A stretch of 48,074 nucleotides of DNA from Carboxylicivirga marina. GTDB taxonomy: Bacteria > Bacteroidota > Bacteroidia > Bacteroidales > Marinilabiliaceae. A program made the translations under genes and the position numbers. The stretch lies in assembly GCF_016612505.1 (NCBI RefSeq), contig NZ_JAENRR010000037.1, positions 1 to 48,074 of the forward strand, in the 5' to 3' direction. Below are positions 8,117 to 15,573 of the stretch, piece by piece (position 1 is the stretch's first letter; each line of letters starts with the position of its first letter). The notes below the pieces were generated by a model. That model worked only from the letters and a program-made list of their open reading frames with translations, was not told where the DNA came from and made no database searches.

Positions 8117-8244
8117 CACCTCTCCTCGGTCCTCTCCTTGAGGAGAGGAAGTGTGAAAGATTGAAACACTGAGCTTTGATTACAGGCTGCAATCTGCAAT
8201 GATGCTCTCTCCTTCTCCTATTAGGAGAAGGCTGGGATGAGGTG
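8117..8244. repeat. DUF559-associated palindromic element, copy A
   Basis: The 128-bp element begins CACCTCTCCTCGG and ends GGGATGAGGTG, so its ends are imperfect inverted repeats. Inside the left end is the palindrome CCTCTCCTtgAGGAGAGG (8131-8148); inside the right end is CCTTCTCCT-att-AGGAGAAGG (8211-8231). The centre is nearly the same as copy C. It lies just downstream of the DUF559 gene on the minus strand and makes up most of the gap 7967-8269. Confidence 0.9.
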
Positions 8245-8269
8245 ATTAAATAAAAATGCGTTAATCTCT

Positions 8270-8647
8270 TTATAGCTTATCACAAATCTCGAGTATTGTC
8301 TTACATACTTTTTGAATATTTTTCTGAACTTCTTCATTCGTAAAACGTAGTACTTTAACACCAAGGTTATTTAACTCAGCCGTCCTGCCTCTATCATATT
8401 CTTTCTGAAAGTCGTGTATTTTTCCATCAACCTCAATCACTAGTTTCTTCTCATGACAATAGAAGTCTGCAATAAATATATCAATAGGGTGTTGACGCCT
8501 GAATTTTAAACCATTTAACTGTCGGTTACGGAGTTTGTTCCACAGAATCTTTTCAGCACCAGTAAATTCTTTACGCAAATCCTTTGCTCGCTGCCTAATT
8601 TTAGCAGAGGCACCGTAAAAGAGATTATCAAAGTTTTCTTGGGACAT
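8270..8647 (-). CDS. DUF559 domain endonuclease-like protein
   Basis: The chosen start at 8647 (MSQENFDNLFYGAS) gives 125 residues; an upstream ATG at 8689 would add a hydrophobic stretch that overlaps the repeat region. The family pattern is clear: KDLRKEFTGAEKILWNKLRN, then LKFRRQHPIDIFIADFYC, then KKLVIEVDGKIHD. The Asp in IADFYC and the Glu/Asp of VIEVDG are the expected PD-(D/E)XK-like active-site residues of this Vsr-related fold. The biological role of DUF559 is not established. Repeats of one family lie on both sides (8117-8244, 8711-8840 and 8974-9100), suggesting the gene travels with, or acts on, these elements. Confidence 0.88.
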   Translation of the reverse strand: MSQENFDNLFYGASAKIRQRAKDLRKEFTGAEKILWNKLRNRQLNGLKFRRQHPIDIFIADFYCHEKKLVIEVDGKIHDFQKEYDRGRTAELNNLGVKVLRFTNEEVQKNIQKVCKTILEICDKL

Positions 8648-8710
8648 AAGCTTCAAGTTAGTTAATATCAGAATTTTTATAATATACACCTCTCATAAGT
8701 GTAATCAAAA

Positions 8711-8840
8711 TACCTCTCCTCGGTCCTCTCCTGACAGGAGAGGAAGTGCTCATCTTGGAAGAATAGCACTTTTAAAATTGAATCGCTGCCGTTCAGTGTG
8801 CTCACTCCTTCTCCTATTAGGAGAAGGCTGGGATGAGGTG
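8711..8840. repeat. DUF559-associated palindromic element, copy B
   Basis: It has the same terminal modules as copy A (ACCTCTCCTCGGTCCTCTCC at the left; CCTTCTCCTattAGGAGAAGG and GGGATGAGGTG at the right), but a different middle of about 70 bases. It lies about 64 bases upstream of the DUF559 start codon. The string AAATGCGTTAAT follows soon after both copies A and B. Confidence 0.9.
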
Positions 8841-8973
8841 ATAAATGATTAGTAATAACAAAAGCATCCAAGTCAAATGCGTTAATAGCTTAAAACACCG
8901 GCTCTTAAAATCCAAGAAGCTTAATTAAAAACTTCTCAGCTCACAAACACCGCCTCTCAGTGCAATTATAAAA

Positions 8974-9100
8974 CACCTCTCCTCGGTCCTCTCCTCAAGG
9001 AGAGGAAGTGTGAAAGATTGAAACACTGAGCTTTGAATACATGCTGCAATCTGCCATGATTCTATCTCCTTCTCCTTGAGGAGAAGGCTGGGATGAGGTG
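8974..9100. repeat. DUF559-associated palindromic element, copy C
   Basis: Nearly identical to copy A over its full 127 bp, including the central stretch AGTGTGAAAGATTGAAACAC. The loop bases of both hairpins differ (ctcaagg and cttgagg forms), the pattern expected when stems are conserved but loops drift. Together with copy B and the CCTGACAGG hairpin at 9121 it fills the gene-free stretch 8648-9163, where no convincing ORF is visible. Confidence 0.9.
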
Positions 9101-9120: not shown

Positions 9121-9153
9121 AAACCTGTCAGGATTTTGAATCCTGTCAGGTTT
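9121..9153. repeat. CCTGACAGG-family hairpin, copy 2
   Basis: AAACCTGTCAGGATT and AATCCTGTCAGGTTT form 15-bp arms with one mismatch around TTG. It lies 10 bases beyond the 3' end of the holin-like gene and may terminate the lysis-type gene set. Confidence 0.88.
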
Positions 9154-9163
9154 ACCCCTCCTC

Positions 9164-9616
9164 TTATCTTTTCCGTTTAAACAGCCCACCTAGAAATCCC
9201 TTCTTCGGTGCTGCCTTTAGTGAATCAGCGTTAACGCCTTTGGTTTTTTCATAGGTGCGTGCCACGCCCAAACCCAACATACCAATCACAACAGTCATTA
9301 AATGCTCCATTTGAAGCGCCGGAGGTGGTGGTGCGCTGGCATTGCACAACTTAATGGCATACACCATTATGTCTCTTAAAATAAAGTTGTATAGTAAAGC
9401 CAATCCACATACCCAGCCAATGAAGGGGCGCCAACCGGCTACAAATACTGATTTATGGGCAGCTTCGATTTTATTAATTTCAATCTGCCCCAGGTTTTCG
9501 TTGTGAGTGATCTTTCTGAGCTCCAATTCCATTTTCATCTCTTCCTCCCTGGAGGTATGTAACTCATCAATGGTATTAACTACCCCGTCTACTATTTTTC
9601 CGATTGGTATTGTCAT
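9164..9616 (-). CDS. Holin-like protein (3TM GTA-holin type)
   Basis: This 150-residue protein has a charged N-terminal coiled-coil-like segment (about 1-55), then the sequence SVFVAGWRPFIGWVCGLALL typical of the three-TM phage/gene-transfer-agent holin family. Two or three further hydrophobic segments follow, then a basic tail (KKGFLGGLFKRKR). Holins of this kind let a muramidase reach the wall. The stop codon of the preceding GH108 gene overlaps its start by 4 bases, so the two are translationally coupled. Export or anchoring roles outside phages are possible, because no phage structural genes are nearby. Family confidence is good. Confidence 0.82.
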   Translation of the reverse strand: MTIPIGKIVDGVVNTIDELHTSREEEMKMELELRKITHNENLGQIEINKIEAAHKSVFVAGWRPFIGWVCGLALLYNFILRDIMVYAIKLCNASAPPPPALQMEHLMTVVIGMLGLGVARTYEKTKGVNADSLKAAPKKGFLGGLFKRKR

Positions 9617-10131
9617 AGCGCTAATGTTTTAAAAGATCGGTTGAGCCATCCGTGAAGAAATTTTATTTGTGTACGGTTGCGGGCCACAATAGCATTATAG
9701 CGAGCCACTTTGCCAATAAAAAAGGCCTGTACAAAAGCCTGTTCACCATAGTTGTTAATAGCCTTGAGGGTGATGGGCCCCAATCCCCCATCGGGTGTGA
9801 CACCAACAATGCGCTGCGCCATTTTTACCGAAGTGCGCACGCCTGCGTTAACACCAAAGTCAAAAATATTATAGGCCACTAAATCGCTCTCGACCTCATC
9901 CAGGCGTGCCTTGTCCCAGTATTTTTCTTTATATAAATCCATTACCATACGGGTTACCAGAGGGTCATCGTGCCTGCCGGCTTTTACCAATGACCAGCCA
10001 GGCCAGTTGGGGTTGTAACGCTCGGCAATACCGGCAAAAGTCCAGCCACCACTGTCGTGCTCCACTTTGTGCAGCACAAAACCGCCTTCGTTCTGCATGG
10101 TTTGTTGAAATGCTTTATTAAAGTTTGCCAT
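9613..10131 (-). CDS. GH108 family N-acetylmuramidase
   Basis: The 172-residue lysozyme-like protein has the GH108 motif NEGGF with catalytic Glu15, and DSGGWTFAGI (residues 26-35). The C-terminal half matches the associated peptidoglycan-binding domain (LDEVESDLVAYNIFDFGVNAG and later FLHGWLNRSF). It would hydrolyse the glycan backbone of peptidoglycan. There is no signal peptide, so it would need the neighbouring holin-like protein (overlap ATGA) or another route to leave the cytoplasm. Length is typical of phage and GTA-type endolysins. It is preceded by a hairpin of the CCTGACAGG family, which separates it from the upstream helical-protein gene. Confidence 0.9.
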   Translation of the reverse strand: MANFNKAFQQTMQNEGGFVLHKVEHDSGGWTFAGIAERYNPNWPGWSLVKAGRHDDPLVTRMVMDLYKEKYWDKARLDEVESDLVAYNIFDFGVNAGVRTSVKMAQRIVGVTPDGGLGPITLKAINNYGEQAFVQAFFIGKVARYNAIVARNRTQIKFLHGWLNRSFKTLAL

Positions 10132-10178: not shown

Positions 10179-10211
10179 AAACCCGCCAGGATTCTGAATC
10201 CTGACAGGTTT
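10179..10211. repeat. CCTGACAGG-family hairpin, copy 3
   Basis: AAACCCGCCAGGATT and AATCCTGACAGGTTT face each other around CTG (15-bp arms with two mismatched or wobble positions). It lies between the helical-protein gene and the muramidase gene and could weaken read-through between them. Confidence 0.85.
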
Positions 10212-11873: not shown

Positions 11874-12284
11874 ATGGATGTGCACGATAAAAAGACCCGG
11901 GCGTATAATATGAGCCGGATTAGGGGGAAGGATACGAAGCCTGAACTGCTGGTGCGTCGCTTTCTGTTTGCCAACGGCTTTCGTTATCGCCTGCATGTAA
12001 AAGAGCTGCCGGGCAAACCTGATATCGTTTTACCCAAATACAAAACAGTCGTATTTGTGCACGGCTGCTTTTGGCACGGACACAAAGGCTGCAAATATTT
12101 TACCATACCAAAAACACGCACCGAATGGTGGCTCACTAAAATCAAAGGTAATAGCCGACGTGATAAACTAGCTGAAATAGATTTAAATGTGTTAGGCTGG
12201 AAAGTGATTGTGATTTGGGAATGTAAGTTAAAATCAAAATCCATTACTACTACTCTTGAAAACCTTCTCGAAAAACTTTCCTGA
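11874..12284 (+). CDS. vsr: Very short patch repair endonuclease (Vsr)
   Basis: The 136-residue protein nicks DNA 5' of T:G mismatches left by deamination of 5-methylcytosine. The family motifs are all present: RAYNMSRIRGKDTKPE near the start, then LPGKPDIVLPKYKTVVFVHG with the catalytic Asp50, then CFWHGHKGC and the W residues that intercalate at the mismatch. The Cys/His zinc-site pattern is visible around HGCFWHGHKGC. Length matches E. coli Vsr. It lies just upstream of a C5-cytosine methyltransferase gene, exactly the enzyme whose product it would protect against. It has its own putative promoter, separated from the methylase operon by the C-box. Confidence 0.96.
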   Translation: MDVHDKKTRAYNMSRIRGKDTKPELLVRRFLFANGFRYRLHVKELPGKPDIVLPKYKTVVFVHGCFWHGHKGCKYFTIPKTRTEWWLTKIKGNSRRDKLAEIDLNVLGWKVIVIWECKLKSKSITTTLENLLEKLS

Positions 12285-12316
12285 TACAATAACTACCTGT
12301 TGATAAAATTATCAAT

Positions 12317-12351
12317 ATGTGACGTATAGTCCGTTGACTTATAAGTCACAT
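12317..12351. promoter_or_regulatory. C-box operator of the controller protein
   Basis: Two dyads, GACGTATAGTC (12321-12331) and GACTTATAAGTC (12336-12347), are separated by four bases and enclosed by ATGTGAC (12317-12323) and its complement GTCACAT (12345-12351). This is the layout of C-box operators in controller-regulated restriction-modification systems (GACTnnnAGTC pairs). It ends 19 bases before the controller ATG. Confidence 0.9.
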
Positions 12352-12364
12352 CCGAATAGTTTTA
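12334..12364 (+). promoter_or_regulatory. Putative promoter of the controller-methylase-nuclease operon
   Basis: TTG (12334-12336), a 20-base gap and TAGTTTTA (12357-12364; one mismatch to TAnnTTTG) fit a Bacteroidota promoter. The -33 element lies inside the C-box. The start site would fall within a base or two of the ATG at 12371, so the message is probably leaderless, as described for several controller genes. Confidence 0.55.
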
Positions 12365-12370
12365 CCCTCC

Positions 12371-12601
12371 ATGAATTTACAGGAACTATTTGGCAAACGC
12401 GTACGCGAACTACGTCAAAAACAAGAACTAAGCCAGGAGGCGCTCGCCTTTAAAGCTGGTATCGACAGAACATATATGACCAGTATTGAGAATGGGAAGC
12501 GAAATGTTTCCATTCAAAATATTGAGAAGGTGATAACCGCACTTGATGTTCCGGTTAAAGATTTTTTTGCATCAGACATTTTTATTGAAGGGAAGAAATG
12601 A
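12371..12601 (+). CDS. Restriction-modification controller protein (XRE family)
   Basis: This 76-residue helix-turn-helix protein matches C proteins of type II restriction-modification systems in length and layout: FGKRVRELRQKQELSQEALAFKAGIDRTYMTSIENGKRNVSIQNIEKVITAL. The HTH spans about residues 16-40. C proteins bind C-boxes as dimers to time expression of the nuclease after entry into a new host. A well-formed C-box lies immediately upstream, which supports autoregulation. The stop codon overlaps the methyltransferase ATG (ATGA), so the two are translated together. Here the methylase, not only the nuclease, follows the controller, an order discussed in the findings. Confidence 0.93.
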   Translation: MNLQELFGKRVRELRQKQELSQEALAFKAGIDRTYMTSIENGKRNVSIQNIEKVITALDVPVKDFFASDIFIEGKK

Positions 12602-13830
12602 AGAAGTATTCAGAACTAAAAAAGGTATTAAACTTTAGGAAGTTAAAATACTTTGAGGAAGAGCATGCATGCGTTACACATTATCTGCAAACCGTAGAAG
12701 ATGATGCTGGTAAATATTACAAGGTAAAGGCTGAAGAATATTTGAAAGCAAAAGGCCAATCATTAGTTAATGGTCATTCAATAAAAATCCCTTTCAAATT
12801 TGATGATATACCATTTCCACCACCCCAAAAACCAGATTTTACTTTCATCGATCTGTTCGCAGGAATTGGAGGTTTTAGGATGGCTTTACAAAACTTAAAC
12901 AACAAATGTGTATTTAGCTCTGAGTGGGACAAGTTTGCTAAAAAGACATATGAAGCCAATTTTGGTGAAGTGCCTTTTGGCGATATCACAAAAGATGAGA
13001 CTAAAAACTATATACCTGATAGTTTTGATATCTTATGTGCTGGTTTTCCATGTCAAGCATTCTCAATTGCTGGAAGGCGAGGAGGATTTGAAGACACAAG
13101 AGGAACACTCTTCTTCGACGTAGCAGAGATTATCAGAAGAAAACAACCTAAAGCAATTTTTCTTGAAAATGTCAAAGGATTACTAAATCATGGCGGTGGC
13201 AAAACGCTTGAAACAATATTAAATGTATTAAGGGAAGATCTCGAATACTTCGTTCCAGAGCCGAAAATATTAAACGCAAAAGATTTTGGCACCCCTCAAA
13301 ATAGAGAACGAATCTTCATTGTTGGGTTTAGGAAAGATTTGGGAATTAATGAATTTCATTATCCTAAGCCGTCTTGTGAAAAAATCATATTTGAAAAGGT
13401 AAAAGAGAAAAACCCAGTCTCCGTTAAATACTATCTGTCAGATACATATTTAAACACCTTAATAGAGCACAAAAAACGACATGCAAGTAAAGGTAATGGG
13501 TTTGGTTACGAGATCATCCCAGATGATGGAACTGCTAACGCTGTTGTCTGCGGAGGCATGGGCAGAGAAAGAAATTTAGTTTATGATGACAGATTAGAAG
13601 ATTTTACACCTGTAACCAACATTAAAGGAGAAGTTAACAGGCAAGGCATTAGAAAAATGACTCCTAGAGAATGGGCAAGACTTCAAGGATTTCCAGATGA
13701 ATATCTTATCCCCGTTTCAGATGCATCTGCATACAAACAATTTGGCAACTCAGTCGCAGTTCCTGCCATCCAAGCTACTGCAAAGAAAATAATTGAAACA
13801 TTAAAGAAAAATGACACTAAAAGGAAATAA
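12598..13830 (+). CDS. DNA (cytosine-5) methyltransferase, HpaII-type partner
   Basis: The 410-residue enzyme methylates cytosine C5 using AdoMet. Motif I is FIDLFAGIGGFRMAL (about residues 82-96), the catalytic motif IV is GFPCQAFS with Cys152, motif VI is ENVKGL, motif VIII is QNRERIFIVGF and motif X ends QFGNSVAVPA. An N-terminal extension of about 80 residues precedes motif I. The target is inferred to be CCGG, because the gene is followed, with a 20-base overlap, by an HpaII-like endonuclease. The upstream Vsr gene fits a C5-methylating system. Translational coupling to the controller gene (ATGA) is seen. Confidence 0.95.
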   Translation: MKKYSELKKVLNFRKLKYFEEEHACVTHYLQTVEDDAGKYYKVKAEEYLKAKGQSLVNGHSIKIPFKFDDIPFPPPQKPDFTFIDLFAGIGGFRMALQNLNNKCVFSSEWDKFAKKTYEANFGEVPFGDITKDETKNYIPDSFDILCAGFPCQAFSIAGRRGGFEDTRGTLFFDVAEIIRRKQPKAIFLENVKGLLNHGGGKTLETILNVLREDLEYFVPEPKILNAKDFGTPQNRERIFIVGFRKDLGINEFHYPKPSCEKIIFEKVKEKNPVSVKYYLSDTYLNTLIEHKKRHASKGNGFGYEIIPDDGTANAVVCGGMGRERNLVYDDRLEDFTPVTNIKGEVNRQGIRKMTPREWARLQGFPDEYLIPVSDASAYKQFGNSVAVPAIQATAKKIIETLKKNDTKRK

Positions 13831-14908
13831 AGGAGAATGGAGTGAATTATACACATTCTTTAAACTACTGCACGATGGCATACTATTCTCTGCCGATGAA
13901 AAATTAAATAAAACAACTTCTTCTATTGATGTCAATTCTATTTATAGAGATGATACAGGAAAAGAATTAGAATTCAAACGCGCTGGAAATCAAATCGACA
14001 TTATAGATACTACAAGTAAAAAAGTAATAATGAGCTTCAGCTATACTGACGCTAAAGCGTTAGCTGATGAACTTTTAACGGAAATTCATAAACTTAGTGG
14101 CAACAAAAACAAAATAAACAACACAACTGAAACCAAAATTAAGAATCATCATATCAATCAGGTTAAAACTAAATCACAAAACAAAGGTGATATTAGAATG
14201 TTAGTTTATGATAGTGTACATGGTTTAACTTCTGATCAAGAATTTAGTATTAAATCATTTCTAGGTAGTGACCCTACACTTTTCAATGCCAACAAAACGA
14301 CCAACATTATCTATAAGATAAGTAATCAAAATGGTAACGCGATGCCGGCGGCGGATATTGCCACAGTCAATTCTTTAAATCCAAAATCCAAAAAATACAT
14401 CAAAAGAATAGAGGAAATTCAAAACTTAGGCTATTCAATAGACTTTGACTCATATCAAGACAACACCTTTAAGCTTAATCTACAATTAATCGATAGTGAC
14501 CTACCAAAAATATTAGCACATATTGTTCTTGATAAATATATAAGTCAGATAACTAAAATACCTGACATCATTAATAAGCTAAATACCTCTAACCCGTTGA
14601 ACTACGATTTATCGCTAGGCCATAATTTTTATGAATACAGATTAATCAATTTCCTTGTTGAAGCAGCGTTAGGTATGACCTCAAAGACTGTTTGGACAGG
14701 AAAGTATGCTGTGATTGGTGGCCTTATAATTGTGAAGTCTAATGCTGATATTGTATGTTATCACTTAGTTGATTTTAATAAATTCAAAGAATACCTTAAA
14801 AACACTTGTAAGCTTGACAATCCTAGTGGCTCAAAGATGGGATACGGAGAAGTTTATGAGGAAAATAATGAGACATACATAAAGTTGAATTTTCAGTTTA
14901 AAGCATAA
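13811..14908 (+). CDS. HpaII-like type II restriction endonuclease
   Basis: The 365-residue protein begins MTLKGNKGEWSELYTFFKLL, matching the start of the HpaII endonuclease family (NKGEWSE motif). It continues with a charged middle segment and KELEFKRAG, where Glu-x-Lys could serve the catalytic site. HpaII cuts C/CGG. Length agrees with the family. Its start overlaps the methylase end by 20 bases in another frame, so both are expressed from one message. The DNA is noticeably A-rich compared with flanking genes, consistent with acquisition by transfer. Target specificity is inferred from family membership and the C5 methylase next to it. Confidence 0.85.
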   Translation: MTLKGNKGEWSELYTFFKLLHDGILFSADEKLNKTTSSIDVNSIYRDDTGKELEFKRAGNQIDIIDTTSKKVIMSFSYTDAKALADELLTEIHKLSGNKNKINNTTETKIKNHHINQVKTKSQNKGDIRMLVYDSVHGLTSDQEFSIKSFLGSDPTLFNANKTTNIIYKISNQNGNAMPAADIATVNSLNPKSKKYIKRIEEIQNLGYSIDFDSYQDNTFKLNLQLIDSDLPKILAHIVLDKYISQITKIPDIINKLNTSNPLNYDLSLGHNFYEYRLINFLVEAALGMTSKTVWTGKYAVIGGLIIVKSNADIVCYHLVDFNKFKEYLKNTCKLDNPSGSKMGYGEVYEENNETYIKLNFQFKA

Positions 14909-15272: not shown

Positions 15273-15450
15273 TACCGATTACGAATCAAAACGATTGATA
15301 AAAAATCAATCTGTGCTCCTGTTTCGGCATTAATCCATGTAATAAGGCACAGATTGCAAATCTGCGCCAGCGTTGGGAAAATACATCTTGTACATCCTCT
15401 GTGTTCTCTTTTAACTCTGCGGTAAATTATTTCTTACAAATCTTTACTTT

Positions 15451-15561
15451 AACTAACGGGATGCAGCATAGTTTGTGTTTAATAGAAAGCCCCCACTCCC
15501 TTCGGGTATCTCCCCAGGGGGAGAATGAATTGAACTTTGAAACTAACGCCATGCAGCATAG
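15451..15561. repeat. Direct repeat pair around a palindrome
   Basis: Two 21-base copies beginning AACTAACG and ending ATGCAGCATAG occur at 15451-15471 and 15541-15561, differing at two bases. Between them lies the palindrome TCTCCCC-AG-GGGGAGA (15509-15524). They occupy the gene-free stretch 15273-15573, in which no ORF or promoter stands out. Confidence 0.75.
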
Positions 15562-15573
15562 CAGAGTCAGTTT

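Follow-up and report, generated by a model that had tools for sequence, protein, structure and literature searches.

Why does a short gene of the DUF559 nuclease family lie among copies of a palindrome-rich repeat? The question is raised by a stretch of 48,074 nucleotides from Carboxylicivirga marina, a member of the Bacteroidota (assembly GCF_016612505.1, contig NZ_JAENRR010000037.1, positions 1 to 48,074), hereafter the window, in which a DUF559 gene is accompanied by three paired-hairpin elements, A, B and C. A first-pass annotation, made from the sequence alone, had proposed that nuclease and palindromes belong together in the way that RAYT transposases, which are Y1 HUH enzymes, serve REP palindromes. 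The togetherness is supported well beyond this locus, and the enzyme is of another kind: gene and palindromes may constitute one homing-like mobile element, with A, B and C as derivatives that kept only the ends, a reading given a probability of roughly 0.58.

Hairpins at DUF559 genes across phyla

The association between hairpins and DUF559 is general and strong. Of 79 DUF559 genes of Bacteroidota, 52 have hairpins within 300 bp on each side, compared with none of 29 Vsr genes and two of 432 random positions. The 79 genes comprise 26 places in relatives of the window (from 33 rows, after fragments and contig ends were dropped; 16 with hairpins on both sides), 40 of 41 rows from the phylum in which the gene lies inside a long frame (25 of them flanked), and 13 further stand-alone loci of the phylum (11 flanked). 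The Vsr control consists of 29 of 30 loci from the same 296-genome draw of the phylum.

In mixed phyla, an alignment of DUF559 compared with species genomes gave at least 578 relatives and 80 loci, nine of which were dropped for short flanks; hairpins stand on both sides at 50 of the remaining 71, and control positions taken from these loci gave 24 of 237. With phylum labels taken by the analyst from record titles, the counts are 25/33 in Pseudomonadota, 8/11 in Chloroflexota, 8/13 in Bacteroidota, 1/1 in several others, and 0/1 each in Elusimicrobia, Spirochaetota, Nitrospirota and Cyanobacteriota. Ends close to CCCTCACCC..CCCTCTCCC occur in most of the 12 loci that were printed, and ends of the form GGGAGAGGG..GGGTGAGGG occur at many of the 71. 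Direct repeats spanning the gene with a score of at least 30 were found at 15 of 27 DUF559 loci and at 7 of 194 control open reading frames (ORFs). Looser hairpin settings gave 21/25 and 29/40 DUF559 loci, in sets that overlap and after 4 of 29 loci at contig ends had been dropped, against 6/130 controls.

A census by a single general end motif found at least three copies in 11 of 126 genomes that carry DUF559 and in 3 of 170 others (Fisher p 0.0099). This motif is too strict as a census tool, having no match in the window's own genome, and the census therefore covers consensus-like ends only. Repeat-rich genomes with no DUF559 hit have DUF559-positive congeners (G131, G294). In G294 itself, 104 matches to the general end motif accompany one DUF559 match.

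In-frame copies inside host genes

DUF559 was matched in 126 of the 296 Bacteroidota genomes, and 41 of the matches listed lie inside open frames of at least 350 amino acids. Forty of these loci were translated, and in many of them DUF559 is flanked by hairpin ends that are themselves translated. Ten ORFs chosen by the analyst from the 40 were assigned to hosts by Pfam: leucyl-tRNA synthetase (LeuRS, at two sites), MetH, RecG, HsdR, HsdM, a UvrD-like helicase, methylmalonyl-CoA mutase, an M23 peptidase and N-formylglutamate amidohydrolase. Host domains flank DUF559 on both sides in seven of the ten, no intein family was detected in the 10 scanned ORFs at E 1e-8, and the frames are open throughout. 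At one site, locus L150 has the order end, DUF559, end, and locus L152 has a full element on each side of DUF559; the latter is the layout of the window, where the DUF559 copy is intergenic.

Empty counterparts of occupied sites, a comparison that the first-pass annotation had put forward, exist in relatives for both RecG and LeuRS. Insert-free and occupied RecG proteins can be aligned as far as the junction on each side, leaving 0-2 residues out of the alignment. In one genus the RecG profile was matched in 121 of 121 genomes among the matches listed, 114 of them above the cut-off, and at least 12 RecG loci with an insert occur among 299 genomes of that genus. The RecG of L178 has a short extra segment, GGSTEENGGT, at the position where others carry DUF559, perhaps the scar of a lost insert. 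Among 30 LeuRS loci, four have long inserts (three DUF559 types), 16 are empty or have short unrelated repeats, and 10 on the minus strand are unclassed. The LeuRS loop before TTRPDTIFG (L219-L244) contains differing short in-frame repeats in congeners, such as GTCATTGCGAACGAAG.. in L241 and AGTCGAAAGTCAAAAGTC in L222, and is a hot spot of such repeats.

Escherichia coli was also considered as a source of a clean empty site. Its DUF559 gene, ycjD, is present in 3365 of 5426 genomes, and the two ycjD-less regions examined show no simple excision, because an operon for RND efflux occupies, together with a TetR gene, the place beside fabI that ycjD and sapF have in K-12.

Movement and inheritance

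Within the window's genus, the gene and an element have moved together. The congener G004 retains the holin-muramidase pair that neighbours the locus in the window (79% identity over 961 bp), and the place of the window's DUF559 gene is occupied there by repeat matches, five of full length and one partial, with DUF559 itself absent. The G004 copy of the gene is found about 6 kb off, in a gap that is free of elements in the window, and this gene and the adjoining element, which corresponds to A, align to the window as a single block. The DUF559 gene and element A have relocated between the two congeners.

At one LeuRS site, the inserts conflict with the host tree. Two insert types, I with 6 rows and II with 3, were fixed from the insert sequence before the host tree was made, and each forms a clade in the insert tree (support 100/99); L172 was dropped as the same place as L216. 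In the host tree a single clade is rejected for types I and II (approximately unbiased test, p 0.0016 and 0.00024). Such a conflict would arise either from exchange between hosts or from repeated insertion. In the RecG pair L359/L360, synonymous divergence is 0.022 in the insert and 0.241 and 0.217 in the flanks; in the pair L168/L169, identity is highest at the insert and drops on either side. With wider insert limits, the insert is synonymously less diverged than its host in 48 of 66 RecG pairs. Inserts are inherited with their hosts and also move horizontally, and the support for movement lies in the relocation in G004 and the LeuRS tree conflict.

At least a fragment of DUF559 is present in 12 of 12 genomes of the genus. 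Several distinct palindromic families flank these genes among the flanks listed, and the second DUF559 gene of the window's own genome has one of them, CCCCCATCG.. The 22-base right end of the window family, at up to three mismatches, has 61 matches in 9 of 20 relatives, all nine in the window's genus, including four in the own genome, three of which are at this locus. The family is concentrated at DUF559, with 13 of the 61 matches within 1 kb of such a gene (own genome 3/4, G004 5/22, G010 4/7, G009 1/2, the other five genomes 0/26), though its copies are mostly elsewhere. Ten copies, in four genomes, have a DUF559 gene at 1 kb or less, and all ten are on the strand opposite that gene, a count in which copies sharing one array are not independent.

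In 41 scanned stretches, 29 distinct complete copies were found, mostly 127-130 bp long. With the ends set by the analyst, none of the 29 has a target-site duplication of 2-8 bp. Compared with a miniature inverted-repeat transposable element of a DDE transposon, the terminal inverted repeats are present, though imperfect, and the duplication is absent. In G004 (L066:2509-3621 and L092), window-family elements are arrayed in a tandem-like manner, recurring about every 200-236 bp with similar spacers between them, and this is seen also where no DUF559 gene is nearby.

The nuclease

The longest ORF of the window's DUF559 gene extends from 8270 to a GTG start at 8689, and its protein matches the Pfam family at E 3.2e-39. 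It keeps the family residues E, D, ExDG..H, D and R, which are invariant among 14 and among 23 sequences that include it; their equivalence to the EDxHD site is putative. Outside DUF559, the nearest solved folds to the model are those of the EDxHD homing endonuclease I-Bth0305I and also of Vsr, and I-Bth0305I is in addition a detectable sequence relative of the DUF559 catalytic domain. Mitochondrial ribosome proteins of Toxoplasma and Tetrahymena are further predicted fold matches to the 8270-8689 model, close behind these two. The Vsr profile PF03852 did not match the window protein.

DUF559 inserts are under strong purifying selection wherever this could be computed. For a link to defence systems, PADLOC gave only one weak match, to DpdF at E 3.5e-4. 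Cargo of phages or plasmids was set aside as an explanation, with matches in 3 of 50,697 records from phages and in 40 of 72,556 from plasmids. The first-pass annotation described DUF559 as lacking an assigned role. Pfam still files it as a family of unknown function, and the description is partly outdated by a 2026 study of Caulobacter VsrA, a protein with a DUF559 domain; cells without a cytosine methylase require it for their response to DNA damage (PMC12907096).

Elements A, B and C

The architecture seen at first pass, three elements of 127-130 bp with shared but imperfect inverted ends and two internal palindromes each, was borne out, and so was a copy on either side of the gene, with the added detail that two of the three are upstream (Table 1). 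The left ends agree at 32-33 of each 35-36 aligned positions and the right ends at 40-45 of 49. The centre is common to A and C (41/44 identities) and different in B (25/50 with A, 26/49 with C), as the annotation had it. When the left 35 bases are aligned with the reverse complement of the right 35, the scores are 14 (A), 16 (B) and 20 (C), and the top score among just under 2000 random 128-mers from the window is 12.

The two palindromes of each element are approximately TCCTCTCC-loop-GGAGAGGA and CCTTCTCC-loop-GGAGAAGG. As single-stranded DNA, every strand of A, B and C folds more stably than 200 of 200 shuffles (z -3.9 to -5.5). One TM-like hairpin was found in each element by scan and another at the other end by eye, and the ends of the elements are of two types paired in inverted orientation. 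The BoxC/TM consensus GGGAGAGGG..GGGTGAGGG was not found at the window's ends, nor the general motif in the own genome; the ends have the variant form AGGAGAAGG..GATGAGGTG.

Table 1. Features of the DUF559 locus in the window
Feature	Position	Strand	Description
Element A	8117-8244	+	Paired-hairpin, 128 bp; CACCTC...GATGAGGTG; downstream of DUF559 gene
First palindrome of A	8130-8149	.	Repeat comparison and hairpin scan
Second palindrome of A	8211-8231	.	Inverted repeat I4
DUF559 nuclease gene	8270-8647	-	ATG at 8647; 125 codons before stop; intact; between A and B
Possible end remnant	8686-8694	+	ACACCTCTC, short, resembles start of left end; by eye, repeat family D6
Element B	8712-8840	+	129 bp (130 counting T before ACCTC); same ends, other centre; upstream of DUF559 gene
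First palindrome of B	8724-8744	.	Hairpin scan
Second palindrome of B	8807-8827	.	Inverted repeat I4
Outer sequence common to A and B flanks	8875-8891	+	AAATGCGTTAATAGCTT, 88% copy of 8254-8270 (beside A); repeat family D10
Element C	8974-9100	+	127 bp; near-copy of A, 119/128 aligned positions; upstream of DUF559 gene
First palindrome of C	8987-9006	.	Repeat comparison and hairpin scan
Second palindrome of C	9068-9087	.	By eye
Element-free gap	15273-15573	.	Counterpart in G004 (L066:8747-10786) holds DUF559 gene, family elements and one further ORF

A proposed homing-like element and its alternatives

The proposed element would consist of two imperfect terminal inverted repeats, each a hairpin with a purine-rich tail of the BoxC/PIT kind, and a nuclease gene with an EDxHD homing fold. 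The nuclease would cut DNA that lacks the element, whether an empty site or an end-only copy of the repeat, and host recombination would repair the break and copy the element in, the mechanism known as homing. Copies with ends alone, A, B and C among them, would be non-autonomous derivatives, a source of homology that is itself spread in this way, and the hairpins might, as a guess, be recognition or replication-fork signals. Homing accords best with the in-frame sites, with the fold and with the absence of target duplication; we infer the cutting of empty sites or repeats, the copying by break repair and the descent of A, B and C from a full element. A broader claim is more tentative, and we hold it at somewhat less than even odds: DUF559 and BoxC/PIT palindromes would form a class of mobile elements across many phyla, in which a homing-type nuclease and not a transposase drives both the dispersed hairpin repeats and the full elements and invades essential genes in frame without splicing, and many BoxC/TM repeats would be its non-autonomous descendants.

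Several results weigh against the homing-like reading. Hairpins on both sides are missing at 27 of the 79 and 21 of the 71 DUF559 genes under the settings used. The first-pass annotation had suggested a count of ends near and away from DUF559 genes, and 48 of the 61 right-end matches, in nine genomes, are separated from any such gene by more than 1 kb. At five or more end-motif copies, carriers and non-carriers number three each, and end-rich genomes occur with no DUF559 match: G041 with 23 copies (at E 1e-10), and G123 and G302 with 5 each. The LeuRS tree test followed pairwise distances that already hinted at conflict, and the repeated insertion in LeuRS may reflect a permissive loop and not a homing site, since the loop also carries unrelated short repeats. 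With core limits (4 of 30 loci at contig ends dropped), lower synonymous divergence of the insert than of its host is confined to 25 of 45 RecG pairs and 35 of 65 others. A general rule that the insert is younger than its host was rejected on these counts; the case is clear for RecG L359/L360. Inserts at LeuRS site 2 and in HsdR diverge along with their hosts. A host function for DUF559 could also explain its strong constraint, and the mismatch-repair role proposed for VsrA is the strongest rival for what the enzyme does.

The alternative that survives best, though we consider it unlikely, is that DUF559 acts in a RAYT-like manner, handling single-stranded DNA hairpins, for example at replication forks, and excising or copying paired-hairpin elements with no double-strand-break homing. 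The layout, paired inverted hairpins with a nuclease gene, fits the first-pass comparison with RAYTs, and it is joined by the near-fixed length of most of the 29 copies, the lack of target-site duplication, the stable single-strand folds of A, B and C and the dispersal of most copies away from the gene. The enzyme itself is not a RAYT. Covalent-tyrosine chemistry is not known for PD-(D/E)XK-type folds, and homing-like copying is likelier than RAYT-like strand transfer because the nearest folds are those of homing and mismatch endonucleases, I-Bth0305I and Vsr. Insertion of the whole gene with its ends, in frame and at recurrent sites, also resembles homing.

Somewhat less probable still is that DUF559 resides in the cell as a repair enzyme or a structure-specific endonuclease, either Vsr-like or a cutter of hairpins or triplexes, and that palindromes spread by another enzyme, such as a Y1 transposase, gather around its genes secondarily. 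Caulobacter VsrA, which acts on DNA and is linked to methylation (PMC12907096), accords with this, as do the strong constraint on DUF559, the Vsr gene and C5-methylase about 3 kb away in the window, and the Y1_Tnp genes of 19 of 20 relatives, with five matches in the own genome. Such an enzyme would not be expected in frame between hairpin ends inside LeuRS, MetH, RecG and HsdR, nor in conflict with the host tree, and Vsr genes of the same draw have no such hairpins (0/29).

Chance, in which intergenic hairpin repeats are common and DUF559 merely lies among them, draws on the position of most window-family copies away from DUF559 and is very improbable in view of the controls (2/432 and 0/29 against 52/79, 24/237 against 50/71, 7/194 against 15/27) and of the hairpins kept at 25 of 40 DUF559 genes inside coding genes. 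The coincidence that the first-pass annotation had allowed for, with repeats just as common where DUF559 is lacking, has for the most part been answered in favour of the association by the flanked genes elsewhere and the three-copy census, the five-copy tie and G041 being the parts that were not.

The homing-like reading, if true, would give the BoxC/PIT/TM repeats a candidate engine and DUF559 a role. How essential enzymes can accommodate, or make use of, a second enzyme within a loop is a further question, posed by the nuclease domains inserted in frame into LeuRS, MetH, RecG and restriction subunits.

Neighbouring genes

About 3 kb from the DUF559 gene, positions 11874-14908 (+) of the window encode Vsr, a C5-cytosine methylase and an HpaII-type restriction endonuclease, a complete-looking CCGG restriction system. 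Positions 9164-10131 (-) encode a GTA_holin_3TM holin and a glycosyl-hydrolase-108 muramidase, a phage-like lysis pair that is kept in G004; no other phage genes were noted beside it. A second palindromic repeat, AAACCTGTCAGGATTTTGAATCCTGTCAGGTTT (arms 88% complementary), brackets this pair at 9121-9153 and 10179-10211.

Comparison with known systems

Among the titles and abstract openings listed from open-licence PMC articles, no link between DUF559 and palindromic repeats was found, and an earlier description elsewhere is possible; Rickettsia-type elements in that literature are analogues only. Rickettsia palindromic elements are likewise in-frame palindromic repeats in unrelated protein genes (PMC10969869). 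They are about 150 bp long, and an endonuclease does not figure in the accessible text of that review; here the insert holds a whole nuclease domain. VsrA has the DUF559 domain and acts on DNA in the cell, and its proposed role is mismatch repair tied to a solitary cytosine methylase; palindromic repeats go unmentioned in the accessible part of that report (PMC12907096).

REP and REPIN systems with their RAYTs are similar in having dispersed paired inverted palindromes around a nuclease gene. They differ in that DUF559 has a PD-(D/E)XK-type fold and its ends lack the GTAG/CGTC tag named in the title of PMC3733652. No Y1 transposase gene lies among the window's repeats, and the five Y1 matches found in the own genome lie on contigs other than that of the window.

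I-Bth0305I is comparable as the nearest solved fold outside DUF559 and in the insertion into conserved genes with empty sites in relatives. It is intron-borne (a 'mobile intron protein'), long and multi-domain, whereas the DUF559 nuclease is short, has hairpin ends and is read through in frame.

The repeats themselves resemble BoxC/PIT/TM, a motif that Holder et al. (2015) report for E. coli and over 260 further genomes, with genome instability around it (PMC4666352). The five inverted pairs of E. coli K-12 always join a type A to a type B, and mobility activities are described there as never found near these repeats (PMC4666352). In Enterobacter sp. 638, a hundred CCCTCTCCC..GGGAGAGGG palindromes have been described and interpreted as likely terminators. 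In E. coli K-12, a type A TTA-loop end lies about 170 bp past the stop codon of ycjD, with a partial end at the stop. A long perfect inverted repeat stands at the 5′ end of ycjD (L356:5737-5800), and its CACCTC/GAGGTG tips are like those of the window elements. A hairpin arm with a third purine tract, inverted pairing of two end types and very wide occurrence are common to BoxC/PIT/TM and the elements described here. The word endonuclease is absent from the text of that paper (PMC4666352), whereas here a DUF559 nuclease gene sits between such ends.
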